Origin: Candidatus Margulisiibacteriota bacterium
GTDB taxonomy: Bacteria > Margulisbacteria > Termititenacia > Termititenacales > Termititenacaceae
DNA: 35,619 bases
Reading direction: 5' to 3'
Assembly: GCA_031268855.1 (NCBI GenBank)
Contig: JAIRWS010000021.1
Coordinates: 1 to 35,619, forward strand
Positions within the stretch are counted from its first letter, which is position 1, and every line of letters starts with the position of its first letter. The notes beneath the pieces were generated by a model. The model was not told the DNA's origin. It saw only the letters and a list, made by a program, of their open reading frames with translations, and made no database searches. The translations under genes were made by a program, and so were the position numbers. Below, one piece after another: positions 3,403 through 17,297 of this stretch.

Positions 3403-3921
3403 TTACCGCAGTCCGGCCCGCAAACGCTCTTCTTTGAGTTTTTCTTCCTTCGATTTTTCTTCCATAGTCCGAAAATATTTCGCCGTGGAAATTTCGTCCA
3501 AAAATTTGGTGGCCTCGCGGTCCATTAAACGTTTCCAGGCCTGCTTTTTGTGCTCGCGGTCTTTTTCCAAAATCTTGCGGTCTTTCATGGATTTCACCAG
3601 ACGCTCGCGCTGTTCTTCTTTGCGCTGATCGGCCTCTTTGGTTTTGTTTTCCTGTTCATTTACGTCGATCTTATATTTTTTGAGAAAATTTTGGCGGTGC
3701 ATAATGCTGGCAAAATTAATATTGCCCTGCAGACCGCTTTTCAGCGTGCGCTGCTGCTGCATTTCATAATCCTTCATTTTCTTTTCACGTTCTAATTCTT
3801 CCAAATATTTGCGCTGGGCTTCGGCAAATTTTTCTTTTTCTAATTTCTCGTAAATCTCGCGGACTTTTAAAACTGTCCGGAGATTATATTGAAACTTATT
3901 GGATTTTTTTGCTTTTTTCAT
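3403..3921 (-). CDS. fliJ: FliJ-like flagellar export chaperone/ATPase stalk
   Basis: A 172-residue, highly charged, almost wholly coiled-coil protein (KLEKEKFAEAQRKYLEEL is typical). Family role: FliJ inserts into the FliI hexamer, links it to the export gate FlhA and helps recycle chaperones. The identification rests mainly on coiled-coil character, the N-terminal FQYNLRTVLKVREIYE segment typical of FliJ, and position directly after fliI. It is somewhat longer than the usual 145-150 residues. It is the last gene of the flagellar array. Its 3' end is duplicated at 2734-2747. Confidence 0.8.
   Translation of the reverse strand: MKKAKKSNKFQYNLRTVLKVREIYEKLEKEKFAEAQRKYLEELEREKKMKDYEMQQQRTLKSGLQGNINFASIMHRQNFLKKYKIDVNEQENKTKEADQRKEEQRERLVKSMKDRKILEKDREHKKQAWKRLMDREATKFLDEISTAKYFRTMEEKSKEEKLKEERLRAGLR
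3404..3417. repeat. 14-bp direct repeat, right copy (fliJ 3' end)
   Basis: Exact copy of 2734-2747. It covers the last codons and most of the stop of fliJ (Ala-Gly-Leu-Arg-TAA). Together the two copies enclose about 656 bp holding only the toxin-antitoxin pair. This could be a target or attachment-site duplication. Confidence 0.6.
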
Positions 3922-3938: not shown

Positions 3939-5255
3939 TTACGCAAAAATATTTTCCAGCCGCGCCACGGTTTCATCAAAATCAAATTTTTCATCCGTGG
4001 CCTGGCATAAAAATTCATTCACCGCGTCGATCTTTTCGATCGCGTTGTCGATCTTTGGATTGCTGCCTTTGACATAGGCGCCGATATTGATGAGATCCTC
4101 GGCTTCGGTGTAACGCGCCAGCACCTCGCGCAGCTTGCCAGCGGCGGCTTTATGCTCCGGCGTGCAGATTTCCGACATCAGCCGGCTGACGCTCGGGCCG
4201 ATCTCAATGCAGGGATAATGATTTTTAGCGGCCAGATCGCGCGAGAGGACAACGTGGCCGTCCAGCACGCTACGCGCGCAGTCCGCAATCGGCTCATCCA
4301 TGTCGCCGCCGTCCACCAGCACAGTGTAAATCGCCGTGATCGAACCCTTTTCCGAAGTGCCGGCACGCTCCATCAGGCGCGGGATCATCGCAAATACCGA
4401 CGGCGTGTAGCCCTTGGTGGTAGGCGGCTCGCCGACAGCCAGGCCGATCTCACGCTGCGCCATGGCAAAACGCGTCACAGAGTCCATCATGAATAGAACT
4501 TTTTTGCCCTGATCGCGGAAATACTCGGCGATCGCGGTGCCGGCCATCGCGCCCTTTAAGCGGATCATCGGCGGCTGATCCGAGGTCGCGCAGACCACCA
4601 CAGATTTGCGCAAACCCTCTTCACCCAGCGACTGCTCAATAAAATCGCGCACTTCGCGGCCGCGCTCGCCAACCAGCGCGATCACGTTGATATCCGCTTC
4701 CGTGCCACGCGCCAGCATACCCATCAGCGTTGATTTGCCCACGCCAGAGCCGGCAAAAATACCGATACGCTGTCCCTGGCCGAGCGTCAACAAACCGTCA
4801 AAAGCTTTGACGCTGGTCGCCAAATAATCTTTGATGCGCGGCCGTTTGGTCGCGTCCGGTGGATCATGGTCAAATGGGTAAAACATGTCCGTCACAATCG
4901 CGCCTTTGCCGTCCATCGGCCGACCCAGACCGTCCAGCACGCGCCCCAGCAGTTGATTGCCCACGCCGACGCGCAGCGGGTGGCCGGTCGGCACGATCTT
5001 GCAGCCCGGCGCAATACCAGTGGTCAGACCCAGCGGCATCAACAGCACATTGTCGCCCTTGAAGCCGGTAACCTCCGCGTAAACCGGATGCGGGTCTTCG
5101 CCCTCCAAAAAAATCGTGCAGAGTTCGCCATTGGCCACGCCGGTAACCTGCGCCTCGATCACCAGGCCGACCGCCTGTAAAACCTTGCCGATCACTTTGA
5201 CGTGCTCGGTATTGTCGATCGCCTGCAAATATTTGGTTAAATCTTTGACGACCAT
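3939..5255 (-). CDS. fliI: flagellar export ATPase FliI
   Basis: A 438-residue F1-beta/FliI-type ATPase energising flagellar type III export on the cytoplasmic face. Residues 1-90 are the N-terminal barrel domain. The P-loop GSGVGKST lies at about 169-176, Walker B FMMDSVTRF around Asp258, and the signature AVGEPPTTKGYTPSVF follows. The 'ERGREVRDFIEQSLGEEGL' region is also typical. All catalytic elements are present. Length matches the family. It follows fliH with a 3-bp gap and precedes fliJ, the standard fliH-fliI-fliJ order. Confidence 0.97.
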   Translation of the reverse strand: MVVKDLTKYLQAIDNTEHVKVIGKVLQAVGLVIEAQVTGVANGELCTIFLEGEDPHPVYAEVTGFKGDNVLLMPLGLTTGIAPGCKIVPTGHPLRVGVGNQLLGRVLDGLGRPMDGKGAIVTDMFYPFDHDPPDATKRPRIKDYLATSVKAFDGLLTLGQGQRIGIFAGSGVGKSTLMGMLARGTEADINVIALVGERGREVRDFIEQSLGEEGLRKSVVVCATSDQPPMIRLKGAMAGTAIAEYFRDQGKKVLFMMDSVTRFAMAQREIGLAVGEPPTTKGYTPSVFAMIPRLMERAGTSEKGSITAIYTVLVDGGDMDEPIADCARSVLDGHVVLSRDLAAKNHYPCIEIGPSVSRLMSEICTPEHKAAAGKLREVLARYTEAEDLINIGAYVKGSNPKIDNAIEKIDAVNEFLCQATDEKFDFDETVARLENIFA

Positions 5256-5258
5256 AGT

Positions 5259-6245
5259 TTAGAGCTCCGGCGCTTTTTCCAGGCCGCCTTCTGCTTTGGC
5301 TTTTTCCTGCTGCTCTTCCAGCATTTTCTTTTCCTGCTCGCGGATCTCCTCCAGCGAAGTCACCTGCATCAGCTCCGCGATTTCTTTTTGTTCCTCGGCG
5401 GCCACGTCGATCTCTTCACCGCGCTCCACCGCCTCTTTTACCGCCGTTTCGCGCTTGGTTTTTTCTTCCTGATAAACACCCAGCAGCGCGGTCTGGATCA
5501 TGTCCAGTTTCGTGACCACTTTGGCATCGATAAAACCTAATTTGGTTTCGATCACGCAGCCGCCTTCCGCGCAATGCTTGTCGGGCACAATGCTCAAATT
5601 CTTGGCCTCGACCAGATCGATGATCAATTCTTTTTCATTGCGCACGGCCTGCAAATCCTGCGCCGCTACTTTGATAACCACCTGTTCATTATCAGAAATT
5701 TTTTCAATAGCGTCCTTGACTATGTCCATCACAATATTCTGACTCTGCGCCAGCTCATTGCGGACAACCTGCGCGGCAATGCGTGTGGATAAACGCATGA
5801 TTTCCGGCACCGCGGATTTGACGATCGTATTTTTCTGCGCGTTGGCCTGCTTCACCACATTTTGCGCTTCGACGATATGTCCTTTGAGCTGTTCATAAAT
5901 TTTTTGTCTGCCCTCTTCCACACCTTTGGCAATTTCTTTTTCCAGCAGCTCTCTGGCTTTGTGCTCCGCGGCGTCGATAATCTGCCGCGCTTCTGCTTCG
6001 GCTTTTTGTTTGATCTCCCCGGCGACGGCGTCCGCCTGCGTCCGGCCTTCCTGTAAAATATTTTGGATCATTTGCTCGCGTTCTTCGTCGCTGACCAGCG
6101 GCTCGGCCGGCTCCACATACACCTCGACCGGCGAGATATTCGGCGTCTCGCTTAATTTTAATTCCTCAATTCCGGCAGCCTCCGGCAGTCCCATATGCAC
6201 CAGCCGTTCACCTAAACGCAAAGTATGTTTTTTTAACAGCGGCAT
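5259..6245 (-). CDS. fliH: flagellar export stator FliH, C-terminally extended
   Basis: A 328-residue, glutamate- and lysine-rich protein. A long helical region at about 60-140 is followed by the conserved FliH/V-ATPase-E-like domain (about 150-255), including LSTRIAAQVVRNEL and the pattern GGCVIETKLGFIDAKVVTKLDMIQ. FliH binds FliI and regulates and tethers it. An acidic, coiled extension of about 70 residues (257-328) follows the domain and is not usual in FliH. Its start lies seven bases from the fliG-like stop, so the genes are co-transcribed. Confidence 0.88.
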   Translation of the reverse strand: MPLLKKHTLRLGERLVHMGLPEAAGIEELKLSETPNISPVEVYVEPAEPLVSDEEREQMIQNILQEGRTQADAVAGEIKQKAEAEARQIIDAAEHKARELLEKEIAKGVEEGRQKIYEQLKGHIVEAQNVVKQANAQKNTIVKSAVPEIMRLSTRIAAQVVRNELAQSQNIVMDIVKDAIEKISDNEQVVIKVAAQDLQAVRNEKELIIDLVEAKNLSIVPDKHCAEGGCVIETKLGFIDAKVVTKLDMIQTALLGVYQEEKTKRETAVKEAVERGEEIDVAAEEQKEIAELMQVTSLEEIREQEKKMLEEQQEKAKAEGGLEKAPEL

Positions 6246-6251
6246 AAACCT

Positions 6252-6740
6252 CTACCCCCGAGCTTTGACCTGTTCATTAAGTATAGCAAACAAGCTGTCC
6301 GACCATGGCAGCTTCTCGACCGCGCATTGTTTGATCTCGCTGCGGCGGCCGGGTGAGAGCATTTCATAATAGTCTTTCTGCCGGCCGGCGCTCAGATAAC
6401 TCAAAACAAAAGCGGCGGTCTGCGGCAGTTCATTTTGTAGCAAAGCCACCAGCTCCGGCAGCGGCTTGCGGCCAATTTCGCTCGCTGTGTCAAGCGGATC
6501 CGGCTCCGGTTCTTTGAGTTTCGGCGCCTCGGGCGGCTGAGTCAGGGCAAAGCGTGTTAATTCTTTGAGCACAAAAGCCACCGCTTCCGGCGAAGGTTTC
6601 TTAAAATTATTTAACTCCCGCGTGATCTTGAGCGCGATGCTCTCCGGCAGACAATCCAGCACTTTGCGGGACACCTCGTCGCCCAGCGCGGAAAGAAAAA
6701 TCAACGCTTTTTCACGGCCTTTTAACTGCATCGCCACCAT
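6252..6740 (-). CDS. short FliG-like protein lacking the torque domain
   Basis: A 162-residue protein. Residues 1-72 resemble the FliG N-terminal domain (KALIFLSALGDEVSRKVLDCL), which binds FliF. Residues 95-160 resemble the FliG middle domain, with LQNELPQTAAFVLSYL corresponding to the EHPQT motif that docks FliM. The C-terminal domain with the charged ridge facing MotA is absent: the frame ends at 6252 and fliH begins straight after. Normal FliG is about 330-340 residues. There is no residual FliG-C coding in the gap, so this is a clean short form rather than a recent frameshift. A separate full-length FliG may exist elsewhere. The ATG at 6740 has a GAGGAG site eight bases upstream. Confidence 0.75.
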   Translation of the reverse strand: MVAMQLKGREKALIFLSALGDEVSRKVLDCLPESIALKITRELNNFKKPSPEAVAFVLKELTRFALTQPPEAPKLKEPEPDPLDTASEIGRKPLPELVALLQNELPQTAAFVLSYLSAGRQKDYYEMLSPGRRSEIKQCAVEKLPWSDSLFAILNEQVKARG

Positions 6741-6756: not shown

Positions 6757-8469
6757 CTATTTCTGCGGCACGGCGTCTTCCTGGAACCACTTTTCCAGAA
6801 CTGCCGCGACTTTATCCGGACTCTGCGCGGCCAGCTCGCGGATCGCATCCGTCGACGGCGCGGCCAGATCCGCAAAGCCTTCTTTGTCTTCCGCGGGCTC
6901 ATCAAAAACAGAACTTTTTTTGCCGCCTTTTTCCGCCGTAACTTTGTTAGTACGCCTCGGGCGCAAGACCAGGATCAAAACCAAGAGGCCGAAAAGTCCA
7001 CAGCCTAAATACGCTATATTACTCCACGTCCAAAAACTTTTTGGTTTGGTCTGTAATTTAGACAGGTCTATCTCCGGTTTATTTTTCTCCGCTGGCGGCG
7101 TGGGTGTCCTGGTGGTTTCTTTGACAGCGGTTTCTGTTTTGCCAGACTGACCGCCCAAGCCGCCAAACAAATTGCCTCTGTTACGCACATTAACATTGGG
7201 CGACCAGCGCAGATCGATGCGGTCACGTCCTTTGATATAGCTCGTCGCCGCGGCAATTGATTTCATGAAAGCCTCGCGCACTTCTGGAGTTAAGATCACA
7301 TCTTTGTCGTTCTGGTCCAGCAGGATCATGCTGGTAATCCGCGCGATCATGGAATTTGGCGTTGTCCTGCTAAAGGGCTGGTCATTCAGCTCGACATTAA
7401 CTTTGACCGCTGTGGCTTTTTTCGGGAAAAACTGATCGGCCATTTGTTTGACATTGCGTTCCAGCAGATTTTCGTAGCGTTCTTTGAATTTCATTTTGGC
7501 CGCGTAAATTTCTTCCGCGCTGGCATTGGTTTGCACCCGCAGCCCTCTAACTGAATCTCTCTGCTGTTTATTCATCTTGCTGTTGTCGATATTGTAATAC
7601 ATTTCAAAAACCGAACTCTCGTCGCCGACAGGGGCGGAAGGATCCAGCGGTATATCGGAAGAATTCAGCAAGGCCGCCGTGCTGACGCCTCGCGCGCTAG
7701 CCTGTGACTTTTGCAAAGCCAGCATCGCCGCCAACCGGTCATAATCTTTGGCATACTCCTCGGAGCTCAAAACCCGGCCGTTGTAATCCACCACCGTAAT
7801 ATTTTCTTTTTGCAGGCCTTCCACCGAAGCGGAAACCAAAGCGATCACCGCCTGCACCTGCGCCGGGGAAAGCAGCTCGCCCTCAACAATTTTGACCAGC
7901 ACCGAAGCCTGCACCGGATTTTGCACGGTGGAGAAAAGCTGTTTGGCCGGTATGACCACGATCACCCGCGCTTCTTCGATGCCGTTGATCCGCGCCACGC
8001 TGCGCGCCATTTCACCGCTGATCGCGCGGGAAAATTTCACGTTTTGATCAAACTCCGACGCGCCCAGCGCACTGCCTTTGTCAAAAATCTCGAAGCCCAC
8101 CGCGCCGCCGTTGGGCATAATGCCCTCCTGGGCGATAGTCAAAACTATATCCGTGCGTCTTTTGGTCGGCACGAGGATCGTGCGGCCGTCGTCCTCCAGC
8201 CGGTAATCTTTCACGCCCTGCGTTTTCAGCGAATCCACGATCAGCGCCGCTTCCGCATAATCGAGGTTTTTAAACAACACCGAATAACCGGCCGGCTCTT
8301 TTTTTTGCTGAAAACCGGGCAGAGAGCCGCCGATCTTGAGATTGCCGGCCAGCGACGGACGGTAAAGGAAAAATAAAATCGCCAGCGCGGCGATCACCAC
8401 AACACCGATAATGATAAAAATCGTTCTATTGCCGCCGGCTTTAGCGCCCGCTCCTATCTGCTCGCCCAC
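6757..8469 (-). CDS. fliF: flagellar MS-ring protein FliF
   Basis: A 570-residue inner-membrane protein forming the MS ring. A first membrane helix lies at about 15-36, then the YscJ/FliF periplasmic domain (VLFKNLDYAEAALIVDSLK; SALGASEFDQNVKFSRAISGEMA; ARVIVVIPA). A second membrane helix (about 477-500) is followed by a cytoplasmic tail. The extreme C-terminus (SPDKVAAVLEKWFQED) is the FliG-binding peptide and is intact. The upstream neighbour is fliE and the downstream neighbour the short fliG-like gene, the normal order. Confidence 0.96.
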   Translation of the reverse strand: MGEQIGAGAKAGGNRTIFIIIGVVVIAALAILFFLYRPSLAGNLKIGGSLPGFQQKKEPAGYSVLFKNLDYAEAALIVDSLKTQGVKDYRLEDDGRTILVPTKRRTDIVLTIAQEGIMPNGGAVGFEIFDKGSALGASEFDQNVKFSRAISGEMARSVARINGIEEARVIVVIPAKQLFSTVQNPVQASVLVKIVEGELLSPAQVQAVIALVSASVEGLQKENITVVDYNGRVLSSEEYAKDYDRLAAMLALQKSQASARGVSTAALLNSSDIPLDPSAPVGDESSVFEMYYNIDNSKMNKQQRDSVRGLRVQTNASAEEIYAAKMKFKERYENLLERNVKQMADQFFPKKATAVKVNVELNDQPFSRTTPNSMIARITSMILLDQNDKDVILTPEVREAFMKSIAAATSYIKGRDRIDLRWSPNVNVRNRGNLFGGLGGQSGKTETAVKETTRTPTPPAEKNKPEIDLSKLQTKPKSFWTWSNIAYLGCGLFGLLVLILVLRPRRTNKVTAEKGGKKSSVFDEPAEDKEGFADLAAPSTDAIRELAAQSPDKVAAVLEKWFQEDAVPQK

Positions 8470-8505: not shown

Positions 8506-8820
8506 TTAAACCGGTATTTGCTCGATCTCTTTAAAGGTTGACACCACCTGATTGACCACGGTTGTCGCCATTTGCACGGCCATAGTCATTTTTTGCACTT
8601 CGATCAACGCTTCCTCCATGCTGACGCGCCCCAGTGAATACTGCGTGATGTAAGCATTGGCTTTTTCTTCCGCCGCGCTCACATCCTGCAGCCCGCCGAT
8701 CGCCGCATCCAACATGACCTGAAACGGCGAAGTGTTCTGCACATTGACCGGAGCCACTATCGTATTCGCACCGGTCTGCACCGGATTTAAACCGCCGATC
8801 GCCGGTATTCCTTCCGCCAT
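8506..8820 (-). CDS. fliE: flagellar MS-ring/rod junction protein FliE
   Basis: A 104-residue protein with the FliE pattern: F-x-x-ML-x-x-A-I near residue 33-43, a central helix, and the C-terminal VSMEEALIEVQKMTMAVQMA followed by VNQVVSTFKEIEQIPV. FliE links the MS ring to the proximal rod and is exported first through the flagellar type III apparatus. It has no Sec signal, in contrast with the next two upstream genes. The ribosome binding site AGGAGG lies eight bases before the ATG. Confidence 0.95.
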   Translation of the reverse strand: MAEGIPAIGGLNPVQTGANTIVAPVNVQNTSPFQVMLDAAIGGLQDVSAAEEKANAYITQYSLGRVSMEEALIEVQKMTMAVQMATTVVNQVVSTFKEIEQIPV

Positions 8821-8862: not shown

Positions 8863-9357
8863 CTACTGCGCCAGCTCCAAACTGGCCTGCATCATCGCTT
8901 TGGTGTTGTTAAAAACCACCACGTTATTTTCAAACGCCCCGCTAATCTCTGACAGCTGGATCAGCTCCTCGGTAATATTCACGTTAGGATACAGGACAAA
9001 ACCACTTTCGTCAGCATCGGGATGATCGGGCTGATAGACGCGCCGAAATTTTTTCTCGGCGTTTTTCTCCGGCCCGACCGAGACCACCTGCACGCCGTTC
9101 ATCACTGGCTGCCCGGCGCGGCCGCGCGTTTTGAAATTTTCCGCCGGGCGCAGGATCACCACTTTGCGGCGGTAAGGCAGTCCATCGGCGGTTTTAGTCG
9201 TGTCCATATTGGCGATGTTTTCCGCGGTAACCTGCGCCTTGGTGCGCTGGGCGATGGCCCCCGAAGCGCTGATATCCAGAGCGTTCTCCAGCCCGACCGC
9301 CGCGCCGAAACACCAGGCCAGCCAGACCAGCGCCGCCGCGCCAAAAATTTTTCGCAT
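8863..9357 (-). CDS. flgC: proximal rod protein FlgC with an N-terminal Sec-type signal
   Basis: A 164-residue protein. From residue 24 it is a normal FlgC: ALDISASGAIAQRTKAQVTA then ENIANMDTTKT, and the C-terminal NVNITEELIQLSEISGAFENNVVVFNNTKAMM. It is preceded by a classical signal-peptide-like segment, MRKIFGAAALVWLAWCFGAA, which FlgC normally lacks. The ATG at 9357 is well supported: AAGGAGG lies five to six bases upstream, and no ATG, GTG or TTG occurs in frame between it and the conserved ALDIS. The stop of flgB overlaps this ribosome binding site. Confidence 0.93.
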   Translation of the reverse strand: MRKIFGAAALVWLAWCFGAAVGLENALDISASGAIAQRTKAQVTAENIANMDTTKTADGLPYRRKVVILRPAENFKTRGRAGQPVMNGVQVVSVGPEKNAEKKFRRVYQPDHPDADESGFVLYPNVNITEELIQLSEISGAFENNVVVFNNTKAMMQASLELAQ

Positions 9358-9369
9358 AAGACCCTCCTT

Positions 9370-9738
9370 TTATTTACCCTGGCTTAAAACCGTTTTGACC
9401 GTCGAAGTTTTCATTGTATACAGCTTCAGCAGCGTTTGATGCCGCATTCGATTCTTGGCCATTTTGACCATTTCCTCCTCCACAATCACGCGGTCAGCCG
9501 ACACGCCGCCGGGTTTTTCCTGCAAGGCTTTTAACTCCTCTTTAAAACGGATCGGCTTAAAACCCTCAACTTCCGCATTGGCCACATTGTGCGCGATGAT
9601 TCCCTGCTGCCGCGTCGCTTCCTGAATATCCCGTTCCAGACGTATGGTCACTTCGTCGAACAAAATATTTTCCACTGCCGCCGGCAGGGCCGCGCTCAAG
9701 AACAGGCTGGCCAAAATAATTTTCTTAACCGCGATCAT
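9370..9738 (-). CDS. flgB: proximal rod protein FlgB with an N-terminal Sec-type signal
   Basis: A 122-residue protein. The mature part carries the flagellar rod/hook motif (QQGIIAHNVANAEVEGFKPI) and the FlgB C-terminal VIVEEEMVKMAKNRMRHQTL. The first 22 residues are a signal-peptide-like sequence (VKKIILASLFLSAALPA). A GTG at Val22 could give a conventional signal-less FlgB, but it has no ribosome binding site, whereas the ATG at 9738 has AGAGGAA upstream. The start overlaps the 3' end of the sigma factor gene by 14 bp. The protein is shorter than many FlgB proteins (about 130-140 residues). Confidence 0.92.
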   Translation of the reverse strand: MIAVKKIILASLFLSAALPAAVENILFDEVTIRLERDIQEATRQQGIIAHNVANAEVEGFKPIRFKEELKALQEKPGGVSADRVIVEEEMVKMAKNRMRHQTLLKLYTMKTSTVKTVLSQGK

Positions 9739-10540
9739 AATTTAATTTCCTCTGAATACGCAAACGCAGCTTGCTTAAAACCTGTGAGTGAATACGGCTG
9801 ATTTTGCTTTTGGAATACCCCAGTTCGTCGGCGATCTCTTTTTGCAGGCAGTCGTCGATATAAAACATCTTGATGATTTTTTTTTCGTCTTCGGCCAGGG
9901 TCTTGACCGCGTCCCAGAGCGCTTTTTTTTCTTCGGCAAAATCGATCTGGCTGGTCACCGCTTCTTCCAGCTGCAAACCGTTGTCCGCCACGCCGTCACC
10001 CGCTGACTGCGTGTCTTCAAAAGACAGCAGGTAAGCCACCGATGAATTAGCCGCGATATTTTTAATATTTTCCTCTTCGCCGCCCGTGTTTGTGCTCTTG
10101 GTATCGAGCGCCGCTTGGGCCACTTTGGCCTCGACACGGCTGACCGATTTATAGCCGCCCGGATTTTGGTATTTCCATTCTTTGCGGATTTTGTCCAGCA
10201 TCTCACCGCGGATCCGGTAGGAAGCGTACACTTTAAATTTCACATTTTTGGTCTTGTCAAAATTTTCCCAGGCTTTGATTAAGCCGCTCGTGCCGTAACT
10301 CATCAAATCGTCAAAATGAATATTGGGCGGTAGCTTGCCCGCGGTAGTGATGTTAGCGGCGATGATCTGCACCAGCGGCGTGAACACCGTTATCACCGAA
10401 TCTTTATTTTTAAAATCCACATTATCTTCTGGAGCTTCTTCTGCCTTGTACAAATGCATGTGCACGTTTACCGGCAGCGGTTTTTTTTCCAGCGTTTTGA
10501 GCTTTTTCGGCGGATTAGGATTAACGCGCTTGACTGCCAT
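9725..10540 (-). CDS. fliA: flagellar sigma factor FliA (sigma-28)
   Basis: A 271-residue alternative sigma factor of the FliA/WhiG type. Region 2 includes LPPNIHFDDLMSYGTSGLI and WENFDKTKNVKFKVYASYRI then RGEMLDKIRK; region 4 includes DDCLQKEIADELGYSKSKIS. By family knowledge it directs transcription of late flagellar genes, normally under control of an anti-sigma factor FlgM, which is not seen here. It lies inside the structural operon, overlapping flgJ-like upstream by 20 bp and flgB downstream by 14 bp, so its synthesis is tied to that of the basal body. Confidence 0.95.
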   Translation of the reverse strand: MAVKRVNPNPPKKLKTLEKKPLPVNVHMHLYKAEEAPEDNVDFKNKDSVITVFTPLVQIIAANITTAGKLPPNIHFDDLMSYGTSGLIKAWENFDKTKNVKFKVYASYRIRGEMLDKIRKEWKYQNPGGYKSVSRVEAKVAQAALDTKSTNTGGEEENIKNIAANSSVAYLLSFEDTQSAGDGVADNGLQLEEAVTSQIDFAEEKKALWDAVKTLAEDEKKIIKMFYIDDCLQKEIADELGYSKSKISRIHSQVLSKLRLRIQRKLNYDRG

Positions 10541-10889
10541 TATTTTCCAGACCTTCCTGCAAAAAGCCCTGCTCGGCCAAATAAGCCGCCAGCTCTTTGC
10601 GCGTATAATCGCCGTAAATACTCGACAAGCCGCTCAAAACCAAACTATCCTCGTCATCTTTTTCCGGTTTATAAATGCTGCTTTCATTACCAAACATGTC
10701 GCGCAAAAAAACTTCTTCCAGCAGCATTTGCCGGAAAGCCATTTGCCGCCCCGCATTGTCCGTCGGCTGACGGCGCATACCTTCTTGAACGACAATATCG
10801 CTCATAAACTCCGCCGGATTGACCGGCACAACGCCAGGCGCCGCCCAAACCAGCGCCAGCAGCAGTAAAAAACCAAGTTTCTGCCGCAC
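10521..10889 (-). CDS. FlgJ-like rod-associated protein with signal peptide
   Basis: A 122-residue protein from a GTG start at 10889 with an AGAGG site eight bases upstream. Residues 1-20 are a signal peptide (KLGFLLLLALVWAAPG). The segment AFRQMLLEEVFLRDMF and the later helix SIYGDYTRKELAAYLAEQG fit the rod-binding domain of FlgJ. The position directly after flgI is that of flgJ. There is no muramidase domain. Canonical FlgJ has no Sec signal, so this follows the same oddity as FlgB and FlgC. Similarity is modest, so the assignment relies partly on position. Confidence 0.6.
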   Translation of the reverse strand: MRQKLGFLLLLALVWAAPGVVPVNPAEFMSDIVVQEGMRRQPTDNAGRQMAFRQMLLEEVFLRDMFGNESSIYKPEKDDEDSLVLSGLSSIYGDYTRKELAAYLAEQGFLQEGLENNGSQAR

Positions 10890-11981
10890 TTAAATAACCT
10901 CTATCTCTGCCGCCAGCGCGCCAGCGGTCTTCAGCCCCTGCAAAATAGCGATCAAATCCTGCGGTGAAGTGCCGACGGAGTTCAGCGCCTTGACCAAGCT
11001 GCTCAAAGTGGAGCCCTCCCGCAGCTGCACCAATTTGATGATCTTCTCCGGCTGTTGCTGCGGCGCAAGCGGGCTGCCGCCGGCCGCGGCTTGATCCATG
11101 GCCAGCAGCGCGTCATCCAGATTTTCGCCTTCAGCGTTTTCTTCCCCGCCCTCGATGCGTATTTCCACATCGCCGTGTGAGATTGCCACCGGCGCCAGAC
11201 GCACATTTTCGCCGATGACCACCGTGCCGGTGCGCTGATTGATGACCACTTTGGCCACCGCGTCAGGCACAACCATAAAATCCTGCACCCGCGCAATGAA
11301 CGGCACCAGATCCTCACGATCTTCCGCCTCGATCGGTATCTCCACCGTCGACGGGTCTATGGCGCGTGAACCGGAATAACCCGCCCGATCCAGAGCTTCG
11401 GCGACCCGCATGGCCGTGCTGAAATCCGCTTTATTTAAGTTGAGCGCGATGCCGCTTTTGCCGGCGATCTCCATCGGCACAGTCTGCTCAACGATCGCGC
11501 CTTCCACAACTTTGCAAACCGTTTCGTTACGATTGGAACCCGTGGACATGCGGCCACCTAAAATTATCGGCCCCTGCGCCACCGCGTAGACCTGATCGTC
11601 AGCGCCTTTGAGCGGCGTCATCAGCAGATTGCCGTCGCGTAGCGATGTCGCGTCGCCGATCGACGAAACAAAAACGTCGATCTTTTGCCCGGGTTTCACA
11701 AAAGCCGGCAGCTCAGCGGTGACCATGACCACCGCGATATTTTTACTGCGGTATAGATCCTGTCGATTGGTCACGCCCATATTGACCAGCAGATTGGTCA
11801 GGGCTTTGTCGGTCACGCTGGAGCCATTGTCGCCGGTGCCTTTCAAGCCAGCCACCAGCCCCACGCCCATGAGTTGATTGGCACGCATGCCAGAAATCAC
11901 AGCGATGTCTTTAATGCGCACGGCCGGCGATTCCGCCACGGCCAGACAAATCAAAATTATCAGCAGTAAATATCTCCGCAT
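10890..11981 (-). CDS. flgI: flagellar P-ring protein FlgI
   Basis: A 363-residue periplasmic protein. A signal peptide at 1-22 (RRYLLLIILICLAVAES) is followed by the hallmark RIKDIAVISGMRANQLMG and GLVAGLKGTGDN, and later INQRTGTVVIGENVRLAPVA and the C-terminal STLSSLVKALNSVGTSPQDL. It forms the P ring around the rod in the peptidoglycan layer. I chose ATG 11981 (AAGGGGG upstream) over the in-frame TTG at 11999. The TAA stop is adjacent to the GTG of the flgJ-like gene. Confidence 0.96.
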   Translation of the reverse strand: MRRYLLLIILICLAVAESPAVRIKDIAVISGMRANQLMGVGLVAGLKGTGDNGSSVTDKALTNLLVNMGVTNRQDLYRSKNIAVVMVTAELPAFVKPGQKIDVFVSSIGDATSLRDGNLLMTPLKGADDQVYAVAQGPIILGGRMSTGSNRNETVCKVVEGAIVEQTVPMEIAGKSGIALNLNKADFSTAMRVAEALDRAGYSGSRAIDPSTVEIPIEAEDREDLVPFIARVQDFMVVPDAVAKVVINQRTGTVVIGENVRLAPVAISHGDVEIRIEGGEENAEGENLDDALLAMDQAAAGGSPLAPQQQPEKIIKLVQLREGSTLSSLVKALNSVGTSPQDLIAILQGLKTAGALAAEIEVI

Positions 11982-11995
11982 CGCGCCCCCTTGCG

Positions 11996-12610
11996 TCAAA
12001 ACAACCAGCTAAACATCGAGGAAAGAATGCCGGGCTGCTGCGGCGTGGACACCGAGCCAGCGCCGCGGATCGTGATCTTGGCATTGGCGATCTGTGTAGA
12101 GCTGATCGAGTTATCGTCAGAAAGTTTGGCGGTGTTCACAATGCCGGAAACCTCGACAGTCTCCACCTCTTCATTGACGCGGATCGAGCGCTGTCCCAAC
12201 ACAAAAAGATTGCCGTTGGGCTGCACGTCGACGACCGTCGCGGTGATCGTTGTTTTCAGCGAAGTCGAACGCTGGGTGCTTCCGGTGCCGGTATAATTAC
12301 TGCGGCCGTTAAAGAGCGTATTTAAGCGCGTATCTCCCGCGCTTTTGCTGGCGAGGCCGCTGACCGGAGTCCGATTGTCTTGCAGGCTGTTGGATAGACT
12401 GAAAGTAGTGTCCGAGCCTTTGTTGGTGCGTGTTGTGCCGGATTGCGCGGCGGATAAACTTTCCTCGATCACGATCGTAATAGTGTCGCCCACCGCAAAT
12501 TTGGAAGCTCTCGCCAGCGGTGATTTGGAATCCGCGCTCCACAGCGACGCGGCAAAACTAACGCACACCAGCAGGAGAACCCCCAGGCACACCCCAAAAT
12601 ATTTTCGCAT
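11996..12610 (-). CDS. flgH: flagellar L-ring protein FlgH (no lipobox)
   Basis: A 204-residue outer-membrane ring protein. A signal peptide (YFGVCLGVLLLVCVSFAAS) is followed by ASKFAVGDTITIVIEE, LKTTITATVVDVQPNGNLFV and GQRSIRVNEEVETVEVSGIV, all typical of FlgH. The characterised enterobacterial FlgH is a lipoprotein. Here the cysteines in the hydrophobic core lack a lipobox, and a type I cleavage after SFA looks more likely. It confirms a diderm envelope. It has its own strong promoter (12658-12686) within the flagellar array. Confidence 0.95.
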   Translation of the reverse strand: MRKYFGVCLGVLLLVCVSFAASLWSADSKSPLARASKFAVGDTITIVIEESLSAAQSGTTRTNKGSDTTFSLSNSLQDNRTPVSGLASKSAGDTRLNTLFNGRSNYTGTGSTQRSTSLKTTITATVVDVQPNGNLFVLGQRSIRVNEEVETVEVSGIVNTAKLSDDNSISSTQIANAKITIRGAGSVSTPQQPGILSSMFSWLF

Positions 12611-12696: not shown

Positions 12697-13383
12697 TTAA
12701 AGAATAATCTGACATTCGCCGCTACCGGTAATTTCCGCCTGCAGAACACGTTTTTTATCATTCTGCACCTGCACCATGATCTTATCGCCCAAAAGACCGT
12801 GCTGCAAAGCTTTCGCGGCGGTCTTAATAGTTACGCTGCCGCTGCTCACCGAAAGCGCTACTATGTCACCGGAATTTACCAATTGCTTGATGCTCAGCAT
12901 CCAGGCAAAGAGCGGCTCGTCAGGACGCAGACCGGTGGTCATAACGCGCGCGTTCCAGGACGCGCCGTTTTCCACCAAATAATGCGAGTATTTCAAAATA
13001 TCCGTGCGCCGCAGATAAAAATCCTCAGCCGCGACCTCTTCGCCTTTGACCAAATGCCGATCAGCATAATAGACATCCGCCCAGACCGCGGCGTCGTATT
13101 TAACGCGGAAAGCTTTGAGCAGCTTTTCCCCGGCCAACACCGAATACTTGATATACATCGACGGCGCGGCCGCCCGTATTTCCGCCCGGATCGTATAATT
13201 AGCGGTCTCCACAGAAATAACCGGAGGCGTTCTGGTAAAATTGAGCGAAACTTCTTTGCCGGTAAAACGCGGCAGCGTCTGCATCTCCCGCAAACCCAGC
13301 GCCAGCAGCTCGGCCGGCGGCAGCTCCGCGGCAAAAAGTCCGGCAGCCAAAAAAACCGCCGGCCAGGTTTTTTTAAAAAACAT
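12697..13383 (-). CDS. flgA: P-ring assembly chaperone FlgA
   Basis: A 228-residue protein with a signal peptide (FKKTWPAVFLAAGLFAAE). The C-terminal SAF/FlgA domain (about 100-228) includes HLVKGEEVAAEDFYLRRTDI, LRPDEPLFAWMLSIKQLVNSG, and the closing KIMVQVQNDKKRVLQAEITG that defines the family. FlgA is a periplasmic chaperone for FlgI. No clear ribosome binding site precedes the ATG, which lies eight bases after the flgG stop, suggesting translational coupling. Confidence 0.9.
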   Translation of the reverse strand: MFFKKTWPAVFLAAGLFAAELPPAELLALGLREMQTLPRFTGKEVSLNFTRTPPVISVETANYTIRAEIRAAAPSMYIKYSVLAGEKLLKAFRVKYDAAVWADVYYADRHLVKGEEVAAEDFYLRRTDILKYSHYLVENGASWNARVMTTGLRPDEPLFAWMLSIKQLVNSGDIVALSVSSGSVTIKTAAKALQHGLLGDKIMVQVQNDKKRVLQAEITGSGECQIIL

Positions 13384-13391
13384 TCGGCAGA

Positions 13392-14180
13392 TTAGCCGCG
13401 GGCTATCTCGATCGCGCTGTTAAGCATGGCCTCGCCGGACTGGATCGCTTTGGAGATAATGTCAAACGAACGCTGCGTGATGACCATTTGCATCATTTCC
13501 GAAACAATGTCCACATTGCTGCTCTCCAGCGAGAACTGGGCGATCTGGCCGAAGCCCTCATCTTCAGGCATGCCATCCAGAGCAATGCCGGAAGACGCGG
13601 TCGCCGCGTACATGTTGCCGCCGATACTCTTGAGCGACGCCGGATTGATAAATTTTACCATTTCGATCTGGCCGATCTGGGTCTGCTCGATCTGATTATT
13701 TTCCTGCACGTACACCGCGCCAGCGGTGGTGATCAAAACATTGGTGGTGGTGTCCGGCACCCGGATCTCCGGCTCCATAGGATAGCCGCTGATATTGACG
13801 ATCCGGCCGTCAGAGTCTTTGTGCAGATTGCCGGCGCGCGAGTAAGCGACCGAGCCGTCCGGCATACGGAACTTCAGCAGACCCTCGCCCTCAATGGCGA
13901 TGTCGAGCGAACCATTGGTTACCTCGATCGTGCCGGACGAAAAATCTTTGGGCGTGCCGACCACGCGCACACCCGAACCCAGTTCGACCAGACCTTTTTC
14001 GTAAGAGGTCTCCGTATCGCGGATAGCCTCTTCGAGTATCTCGGGGAAAAGCGTTTCTAATTCCACCCGCGCTTTTTTGAAACCAGTCGTTTTCACGTTG
14101 GAAACATTGTTGGTGATCGTAATCAAATCTTTTTCCATGGCGCTCATACCCGTCGCCGCAATGTGGAATTGTCTAAACAT
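13392..14180 (-). CDS. flgG: distal rod protein FlgG
   Basis: A 262-residue axial protein without a Sec signal. The N-terminal rod/hook motif AMEKDLITITNNVSNVKTTG follows HIAATGMSA. The FlgG-specific LGSGVRVVGTPKDFSSGTIE and SLDIAIEGEGLLKFRMPDGS come next, and the C-terminal QFSLESSNVDIVSEMMQMVI then TQRSFDIISKAIQSGEAM. All are normal for FlgG. It is the first gene of the leftward flagellar array, with AGGGGG six bases before the ATG. FlgF is not present nearby. Confidence 0.96.
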   Translation of the reverse strand: MFRQFHIAATGMSAMEKDLITITNNVSNVKTTGFKKARVELETLFPEILEEAIRDTETSYEKGLVELGSGVRVVGTPKDFSSGTIEVTNGSLDIAIEGEGLLKFRMPDGSVAYSRAGNLHKDSDGRIVNISGYPMEPEIRVPDTTTNVLITTAGAVYVQENNQIEQTQIGQIEMVKFINPASLKSIGGNMYAATASSGIALDGMPEDEGFGQIAQFSLESSNVDIVSEMMQMVITQRSFDIISKAIQSGEAMLNSAIEIARG

Positions 14181-16433: not shown

Positions 16434-17228
16434 CTACGCGCATTTACGGATATAGATCAGCGTGTAATAACTCGGCCGGTTGTCAAAAGCCGTGCCGGAG
16501 CCGGTATCGCCCACACTGCCGCCGGAAATATTATGCGTGTGAGCGCCGTCGCCCCCTGTAGTCCCTGAATAGTAATGTGTATGCGAGCCTTCACCGGCTG
16601 TATCACCGGCCAGCGTATGCTTGTGTCCCACGCTGTCTATCGTGCCGGACGGTGTCATAGAAAATTTTATACCCCTGCCATTACCACCAGTCGTAAGTCC
16701 CCACGTAATACCAGCTTGTGAAGAAAACACATCACCCATACCACCTACACTTGTCAGCTCAGCCGCATCACCAATGGGTATGTACCCGGAAGCAGCCGTG
16801 CCGGTAAATGTATGACTGTGGTATTCGTCGGACACGCTGACAGCGGATAAACCGTGCGCGTGGGTTGTGCCACCGCCTGATGATCCTGAATAACTATGCG
16901 TGTGCCCTGACGCCATGTCAGCGCTCAAGCCGGACAATTGATGGCTGTGCGCCGGCAAGTTGCTCGTGGTTAACGTAAGGCTGTTGCTGCCGCCGGCGCT
17001 TCCTTTAACAGCGGCGCCCATGATAAATTTGTCCGTCAAATCCGGCGTCAGTCCAGCGGCGGCGTTGGCAGCGTCGCACCTGTACCAGCCCTTGAGCGTA
17101 ACATTATCCGCCCAGCTATTTCCGTCATACATCAGTATCGCGCCTATCGGAAAAAAAGTTAAATGCAAAATATCGTCCGCCAGCATCGGCTCGCCTTTGG
17201 CTATTTTAGGCTGCAAAATTCTAGTCAT
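16434..17228 (-). CDS. phage tail-collar/needle-like fibre protein with seven HxH motifs
   Basis: A 264-residue protein. The N-terminal ILMYDGNSW, then LKGWYRCDAANAAAGLTPDL and DKFIMGA, match the tail-collar fold ('GWLLCDG..PDLRGRF'). The end, FDNRPSYYTLIYIRKCA, is the usual terminus of such fibres. Between them lie seven His-x-His motifs (HSH, HTH, HAH, HSH, HKH, HTH, HTH) in Gly/Ser/Thr-rich strands. In the T4 gp37 tip such motifs in an intertwined trimer coordinate a row of iron ions. There is no signal peptide. ATG 17228 is chosen (AAGGGGG seven bases upstream) over a GTG at 17288 that would extend into the leader. No other tail, capsid or lysis gene is adjacent. Confidence 0.85.
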   Translation of the reverse strand: MTRILQPKIAKGEPMLADDILHLTFFPIGAILMYDGNSWADNVTLKGWYRCDAANAAAGLTPDLTDKFIMGAAVKGSAGGSNSLTLTTSNLPAHSHQLSGLSADMASGHTHSYSGSSGGGTTHAHGLSAVSVSDEYHSHTFTGTAASGYIPIGDAAELTSVGGMGDVFSSQAGITWGLTTGGNGRGIKFSMTPSGTIDSVGHKHTLAGDTAGEGSHTHYYSGTTGGDGAHTHNISGGSVGDTGSGTAFDNRPSYYTLIYIRKCA

Positions 17229-17297
17229 ACAAAATCCCCCTTTGTTCTTTATAGTGTCTTTATAAATCTCCGCCCAACAATCCGGCACGGCTTCTTT

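Follow-up and report, generated by a model that had tools for sequence, protein, structure and literature searches.

The 35,619-nucleotide stretch of DNA analysed here (the window) quite likely encodes much of a flagellum-type secretion basal body, found in one branch of the Margulisbacteria, in which the proximal rod proteins FlgB, FlgC and FlgF have been shifted to the Sec pathway. The N-terminal signal peptides on these proteins are, judged from sequence comparison, real, clade-specific and proximal-rod-specific, with the addition of a FlgJ-like protein in some lineages. Use of Sec, cleavage, assembly from the periplasm and a function in secretion are inferred.

The window is contig C21 of genome G000 (genus Ca. 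Termititenax, phylum Margulisbacteria; 1.55 Mb, 96% complete), and it contains a flagellum-type operon on the minus strand with the gene order flgG, flgA, flgH, flgI, flgJ-like, sigma-28, flgB, flgC, fliE, fliF, a short fliG, fliH, fliI and fliJ. The features used below are as follows.

13392..14180, minus strand: flgG, distal rod protein without signal peptide (TIGR02488, 266 bits)
12697..13383, minus strand: flgA, P-ring chaperone (TIGR03170, PF13144)
11996..12610, minus strand: flgH, L-ring (profile match)
10890..11999, minus strand: flgI, P-ring (profile match)
10521..10889, minus strand: flgJ-like by position and homology (iterative HMM relatives), with a signal peptide if read from the GTG at 10889 (p=0.975)
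9725..10540, minus strand: sigma-28, fliA-like (profile match)
9746..9753, minus strand: Shine-Dalgarno-like AGAGGAAA upstream of the flgB ATG (sequence inspection)
9370..9738, minus strand: flgB, proximal rod protein of 122 aa with N-terminal signal peptide (TIGR01396, 39.6 bits, below cut-off; signal peptide p=0.86; fold match)
9676..9738, minus strand: predicted FlgB signal peptide, about residues 1-21 (sequence, dN/dS, classifier)
9362..9369, minus strand: Shine-Dalgarno AAGGAGGG, 4 nt upstream of the flgC ATG (sequence inspection)
8863..9357, minus strand: flgC, proximal rod protein of 164 aa with N-terminal signal peptide (TIGR01395, 123 bits; signal peptide p=0.92; AlphaFold fold match)
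9295..9357, minus strand: predicted FlgC signal peptide, about residues 1-21, predicted cleavage near GAA|V (alignment boundary with FlgC lacking the signal peptide; dN/dS)
8506..8820, minus strand: fliE, without signal peptide (PF02049, TIGR00205)
6757..8469, minus strand: fliF, MS ring (PF01514)
6252..6740, minus strand: fliG of 162 aa without the C-terminal torque domain (PF14842 and PF14841 only)
5259..6245, minus strand: fliH (PF02108)
3939..5255, minus strand: fliI, export ATPase (PF00006, PF18269)
3403..3921, minus strand: fliJ (PF02050)

FlgC begins with MRKIFGAAALVWLAWCFGAA, followed by the core VGLENALDIS..., and its alignment to TIGR01395 starts at residue 24, while FlgB begins with MIAVKKIILASLFLSAALPAA, followed by the core VENILFDEV... 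In both proteins charged residues, a hydrophobic stretch and small residues follow one another and lead directly into the rod core, which is the pattern that the original prediction had described, and its open reading frames, coordinates and N-termini were all confirmed. The cleavage site of the window FlgB is less typical than the standard one; otherwise the two segments have a positive n-region, a hydrophobic h-region and small residues at -3 and -1. FlgC scores above its family cut-off (TIGR01395, 123.3 against 102.1 bits) and also above those of PF00460 and PF06429. The scores of FlgB lie below the cut-offs (TIGR01396, 39.6 against 59.05; PF00460, 18.5 against 20.7), and despite this the product of 9370..9738 is FlgB-like by its position before flgC, its alignment and its fold. 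Between the ATG of flgC and its core there is no ATG, GTG or TTG start, as had been claimed, and in flgB an in-frame GTG lies at V22, the first residue of the core, with TTGs within the signal peptide. Both ATGs have a Shine-Dalgarno sequence at normal distance, and the V22 GTG has none.

Signal-peptide prediction for the two proteins, one of the checks proposed with the original prediction, was made with a home-made classifier trained on FlgH and FlgI of the phylum as positives and on FliE, FliI, FliA, FliH and FliG as negatives, with leave-one-genome-out testing. A simple threshold rule gave false positives on FliG, and the calibrated classifier was used instead; it recognised 55 of 64 positives and called a signal peptide in 2 of 176 negatives. 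The window proteins scored 0.86 (FlgB) and 0.92 (FlgC), and FlgB read from the V22 GTG scored 0.003. None of 74 FlgC proteins of other bacteria (mostly Firmicutes) passed 0.5, and none of 21 FlgB proteins of other bacteria was given a signal peptide. Between Termititenax genomes the dN/dS of the signal-peptide part was 0.23-0.45, compared with 0.06-0.10 for the mature part, and values in the former range indicate that the segment is translated and under purifying selection. The AlphaFold model of FlgC (pLDDT 86.5) matches the proximal rod chains of Salmonella in 7cg0 with a TM-score of 0.87 by target; the same structure is the best PDB fold match of the FlgB model, with a weak E value of 3e-3.

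The distribution of the signal peptides was followed in 55 Margulisbacteria genomes, 51 of which have FlgC, and a tree was built from FlgB, FlgC, FliE and FliF of the 59 flgBC systems gathered. The systems fall into three groups, namely 8 true flagella (support 100/100), 22 systems without signal peptides (100/99) and 29 with a signal peptide on FlgC (80/72, only moderate support for a single clade), the latter two being sister clades. The assignments of FlgC in G032, G038 and G039 and of FlgB in G001, G036 and G039 were made on inspection or with an alternative start, and not by the automatic call. All 6 Termititenax-family genomes in which the locus was found have signal peptides on both FlgB and FlgC; in G001-G004 FlgC aligns over residues 1-164 at 76-91%, whereas the signal peptide of G007 has a different sequence. 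Alignment with relatives, also proposed as a check, consequently gave an extension that is conserved in the family and present on FlgC throughout the 29-system clade, and its end coincides with the Met start of FlgC proteins lacking it. Between families the signal peptides are highly divergent; nevertheless many have at their end, directly ahead of the core, a classical site with Gln as the next residue, as in the distant members LVA|QSLDD, VVA|QGYND and LMA|QTIED, which points to cleavable peptides. Termititenax relatives of the window FlgC have the ideal sites AVA|GLEN and AGA|GLEN. The Sec-route reading of FlgB and FlgC, which relatives without the extensions would have refuted, is in this way supported, at the level of prediction, by the 29-system clade of relatives that carry extensions with small-x-small sites before the core.

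FlgB has a signal peptide in 18 systems, those of Termititenax and of most members in a 14-member group. In eight systems with signal-peptide FlgC, and in G047, FlgB is without one, which would require mixed routing; the pattern for FlgB corresponds to 3 changes on the tree. In the two-system genomes, FlgB and FlgC of the true flagellum carry no signal peptide.

The signal-peptide-bearing set extends to FlgF. G000 encodes a FlgF-like protein with a signal peptide on contig C57, outside the window, whose best NCBIfam match is flgF at a score below the cut-off (TIGR02490, 122 against 178.5 bits). FlgF signal peptides were likewise found in G001, G003 and G007, in the second G008 system, in G010:C31 and in most members of the 14-member group. 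All 4 Termititenax-family genomes checked have one, and so do most systems inspected in the signal-peptide clade. FlgF of the sister clade has a signal peptide in none of 22 systems, all starting at the core. The set is hence FlgB, FlgC and FlgF, the proteins that follow FliE in the proximal rod of Salmonella (PMC12403130). FliE (signal-peptide-like in 0 of 46 in the phylum) and FlgG proper are without signal peptides, as had been noted for the operon itself. The FlgJ-like protein of the operon, absent from the original prediction and not recognised by Pfam or NCBIfam, also has a predicted signal peptide (0.975 from the GTG start); such signal peptides were gained in some lineages and within Termititenax occur only in G000-G002. 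A lipoprotein reading was rejected on the absence of a conserved lipobox, the single LGSC being found in the FlgF of G000 only. In much of the 14-member group the fliE open reading frames are about 190-250 aa, normally about 105, owing to an insertion or an added segment (L033, L034, L036, L037, L039, L041-L043).

The export route leaves a possible trace in FlgB itself. Salmonella FlgB requires F45 for FlhB-dependent type III secretion (PMC9307174), and this protein served as the yardstick, with residue numbering checked against PDB 7bin. The equivalent residue is Phe in 39 of 39 FlgB proteins without and in 8 of 18 with a signal peptide, and in the other 10 of the 18 it is replaced by Leu, Ile, Tyr or Glu. 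A phylogenetically independent test of this loss comprised 2 pairs on supported branches, which leaves it without power, and gave no significance. Since the losses amount to 2 events on the tree and Termititenax FlgB retains the Phe (FKEEL), the replacement is only suggestive, although it would fit a release from the type III route. The equivalent of Salmonella FlgC F49 was also considered as a route marker and proved uninformative, being variable in both groups.

As to the kind of machine, G000 has the flagellar type III export apparatus (FlhA, FlhB, FliP, FliR and FliI) together with the P- and L-ring genes flgI and flgH in the window, for rings whose place is taken by a secretin in injectisomes. 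Flagellin (PF00669) was found only in the 8 two-system genomes, i.e. those with a second, true flagellum, and Pfam FlgD only in these (7 of 8) and not in G000. Hook-sized FlgE was likewise restricted to genomes with a true flagellum among 18 genomes sampled, and G000 has no FlgEFG member above about 300 aa. Near fliP, G000 encodes proteins of 202 and 277 aa that occupy the positions of FlgD and FlgE, respectively, so that a short hook is possible. A FliM-like protein is present, the FliG_C torque domain (PF01706) was found nowhere in G000, and the search for a MotA stator gave only a 136-aa MotA/ExbB-family protein. Such absences come from draft genomes and are not proof, but the pattern recurs across dozens of genomes. 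As far as its recognisable genes go, the machine is a flagellum-type export apparatus in which no filament, standard hook or FliG torque domain can be recognised, and not an ordinary flagellum. The original prediction keeps its signal peptides on FlgB and FlgC and is corrected in three respects: they are confined to a single lineage, FlgF belongs to the set, and the machine is of the kind just described. Torque-less FliG occurs in the window (6252-6740) and in G012, G017, G020, G030, G034, G041, G043, G045, G049, G053 and others. Several genomes of the signal-peptide clade encode separate FliG_C proteins of 480-560 aa, no more than about 1 kb away from genes of the MotA family (for example G049:C22, G030:C27, G020:C43), possibly a motor detached from the flagellar locus. 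Most Margulisbacteria examined have a flagellum-type export system without flagellin, and the systems lacking signal peptides are mostly also without MotA; a flagellum-related export system appears to be widespread in the phylum and not to serve swimming.

In the assembly that we propose, FlgB, FlgC and FlgF would be synthesised as precursors and cross the inner membrane via Sec, signal peptidase I would cut directly before their canonical N-termini, and the mature proteins would assemble from the periplasmic side onto FliE and the FliPQR gate, within an MS ring that the Sec-delivered subunits would have to enter. The first layer on FliP and FliR, within the MS ring, consists of FliE (PMC12403130). 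In Salmonella strains unable to build a rod, type III substrates are secreted into the periplasm (PMC13344023), and Sec delivery would put FlgB, FlgC and FlgF in this same compartment, and there they could join FliE. Exit via the type III channel would remain the route of FliE and of the distal rod protein FlgG, FlgG and later substrates following after the proximal rod, and the channel would then act as a conduit crossing the P and L rings, with no filament attached. On balance we favour, with some reserve, a filament-less machine in which Sec-delivered subunits form all of the proximal rod but FliE from the periplasmic side, the type III gate being freed from exporting that part, and such a hybrid Sec/type III assembly may have arisen about once in Margulisbacteria.

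The original prediction had left room for anchoring in the inner membrane, where FlgB, FlgC and FlgF, inserted by SRP/Sec through uncleaved signal anchors, would stay as a collar at the MS ring. The segments are hydrophobic helices, AlphaFold gives FlgC residues 2-49 as a single continuous helix, and some Termititenax FlgB cleavage sites are non-ideal (LPAAVEN). However, a modelled helix across a signal peptide carries little information, and small-x-small sites, often with Gln, recur just ahead of the core in unrelated signal-peptide sequences and are ideal in the Termititenax FlgC relatives; because these classical sites recur and a conserved lipobox is absent, we regard anchoring as unlikely. 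It is more doubtful still that the hydrophobic N-termini act as type III export signals in altered form, with exit through FlhA/FlhB/FliPQR. The intact export gate and the FlhB-binding Phe kept in Termititenax FlgB would suit this, but no such segment is found on FliE or FlgG, for which the same gate is expected, the segments show the n, h and c regions of Sec signals, and the Phe is gone in 10 of the 18 FlgB proteins concerned. Translation from the core, with the upstream segment never made, has in its favour the in-frame GTG at FlgB V22. FlgC offers no alternative start, good Shine-Dalgarno sequences stand at both ATGs and not at the GTG, and the segment is under codon-level constraint; mis-annotation of the starts is refuted in large part by the dN/dS values and by the same architecture recurring in 29 systems, and we consider it extremely improbable.

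Sec delivery of FlgB, FlgC and FlgF would depart from what is established for their homologues. It is central to flagellar assembly that the growing structure exports its rod subunits through its own channel; a clade with Sec signals on these proteins shows how this rule could be broken and offers a natural experiment on whether periplasmic subunits are able to build a proximal rod. The Salmonella proximal rod (FliE-FlgB-FlgC-FlgF on FliPQR) shares with the present system homologous FlgB, FlgC, FlgF, FliE and FlgG, the export gate and the FlgC fold (7cg0), but its FlgB, FlgC and FlgF lack Sec signals and are exported as type III substrates (PMC9307174, PMC10936197, PMC12403130). The signal peptides are of the same kind as those of the Sec-exported FlgA, FlgH and FlgI and lead to the same compartment; those proteins are however ring and chaperone proteins, whereas the ones bearing signal peptides here are axial subunits. 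Flagellum-type basal bodies without a filament are represented by the hook-basal bodies of Buchnera, which have the export gate and rod without flagellin and retain the hook, and we know of no Sec signals on rod proteins in such systems. The 22 filament-less systems of the sister clade have a related gene set, also without flagellin, and differ in that FlgB, FlgC and FlgF start at the canonical core. Among the open-access papers that we found, none described signal peptides on rod proteins.

Two further genes of the window, both on the minus strand, may be mentioned. A repetitive Cys- and Gly-rich protein of 522 aa without a Pfam match is encoded at 736-2304, with repeats like GCGNACAGGC, and the product of 16434-17288 is similar to the C-terminal domain of the phage baseplate protein Gp10 (PF21939).
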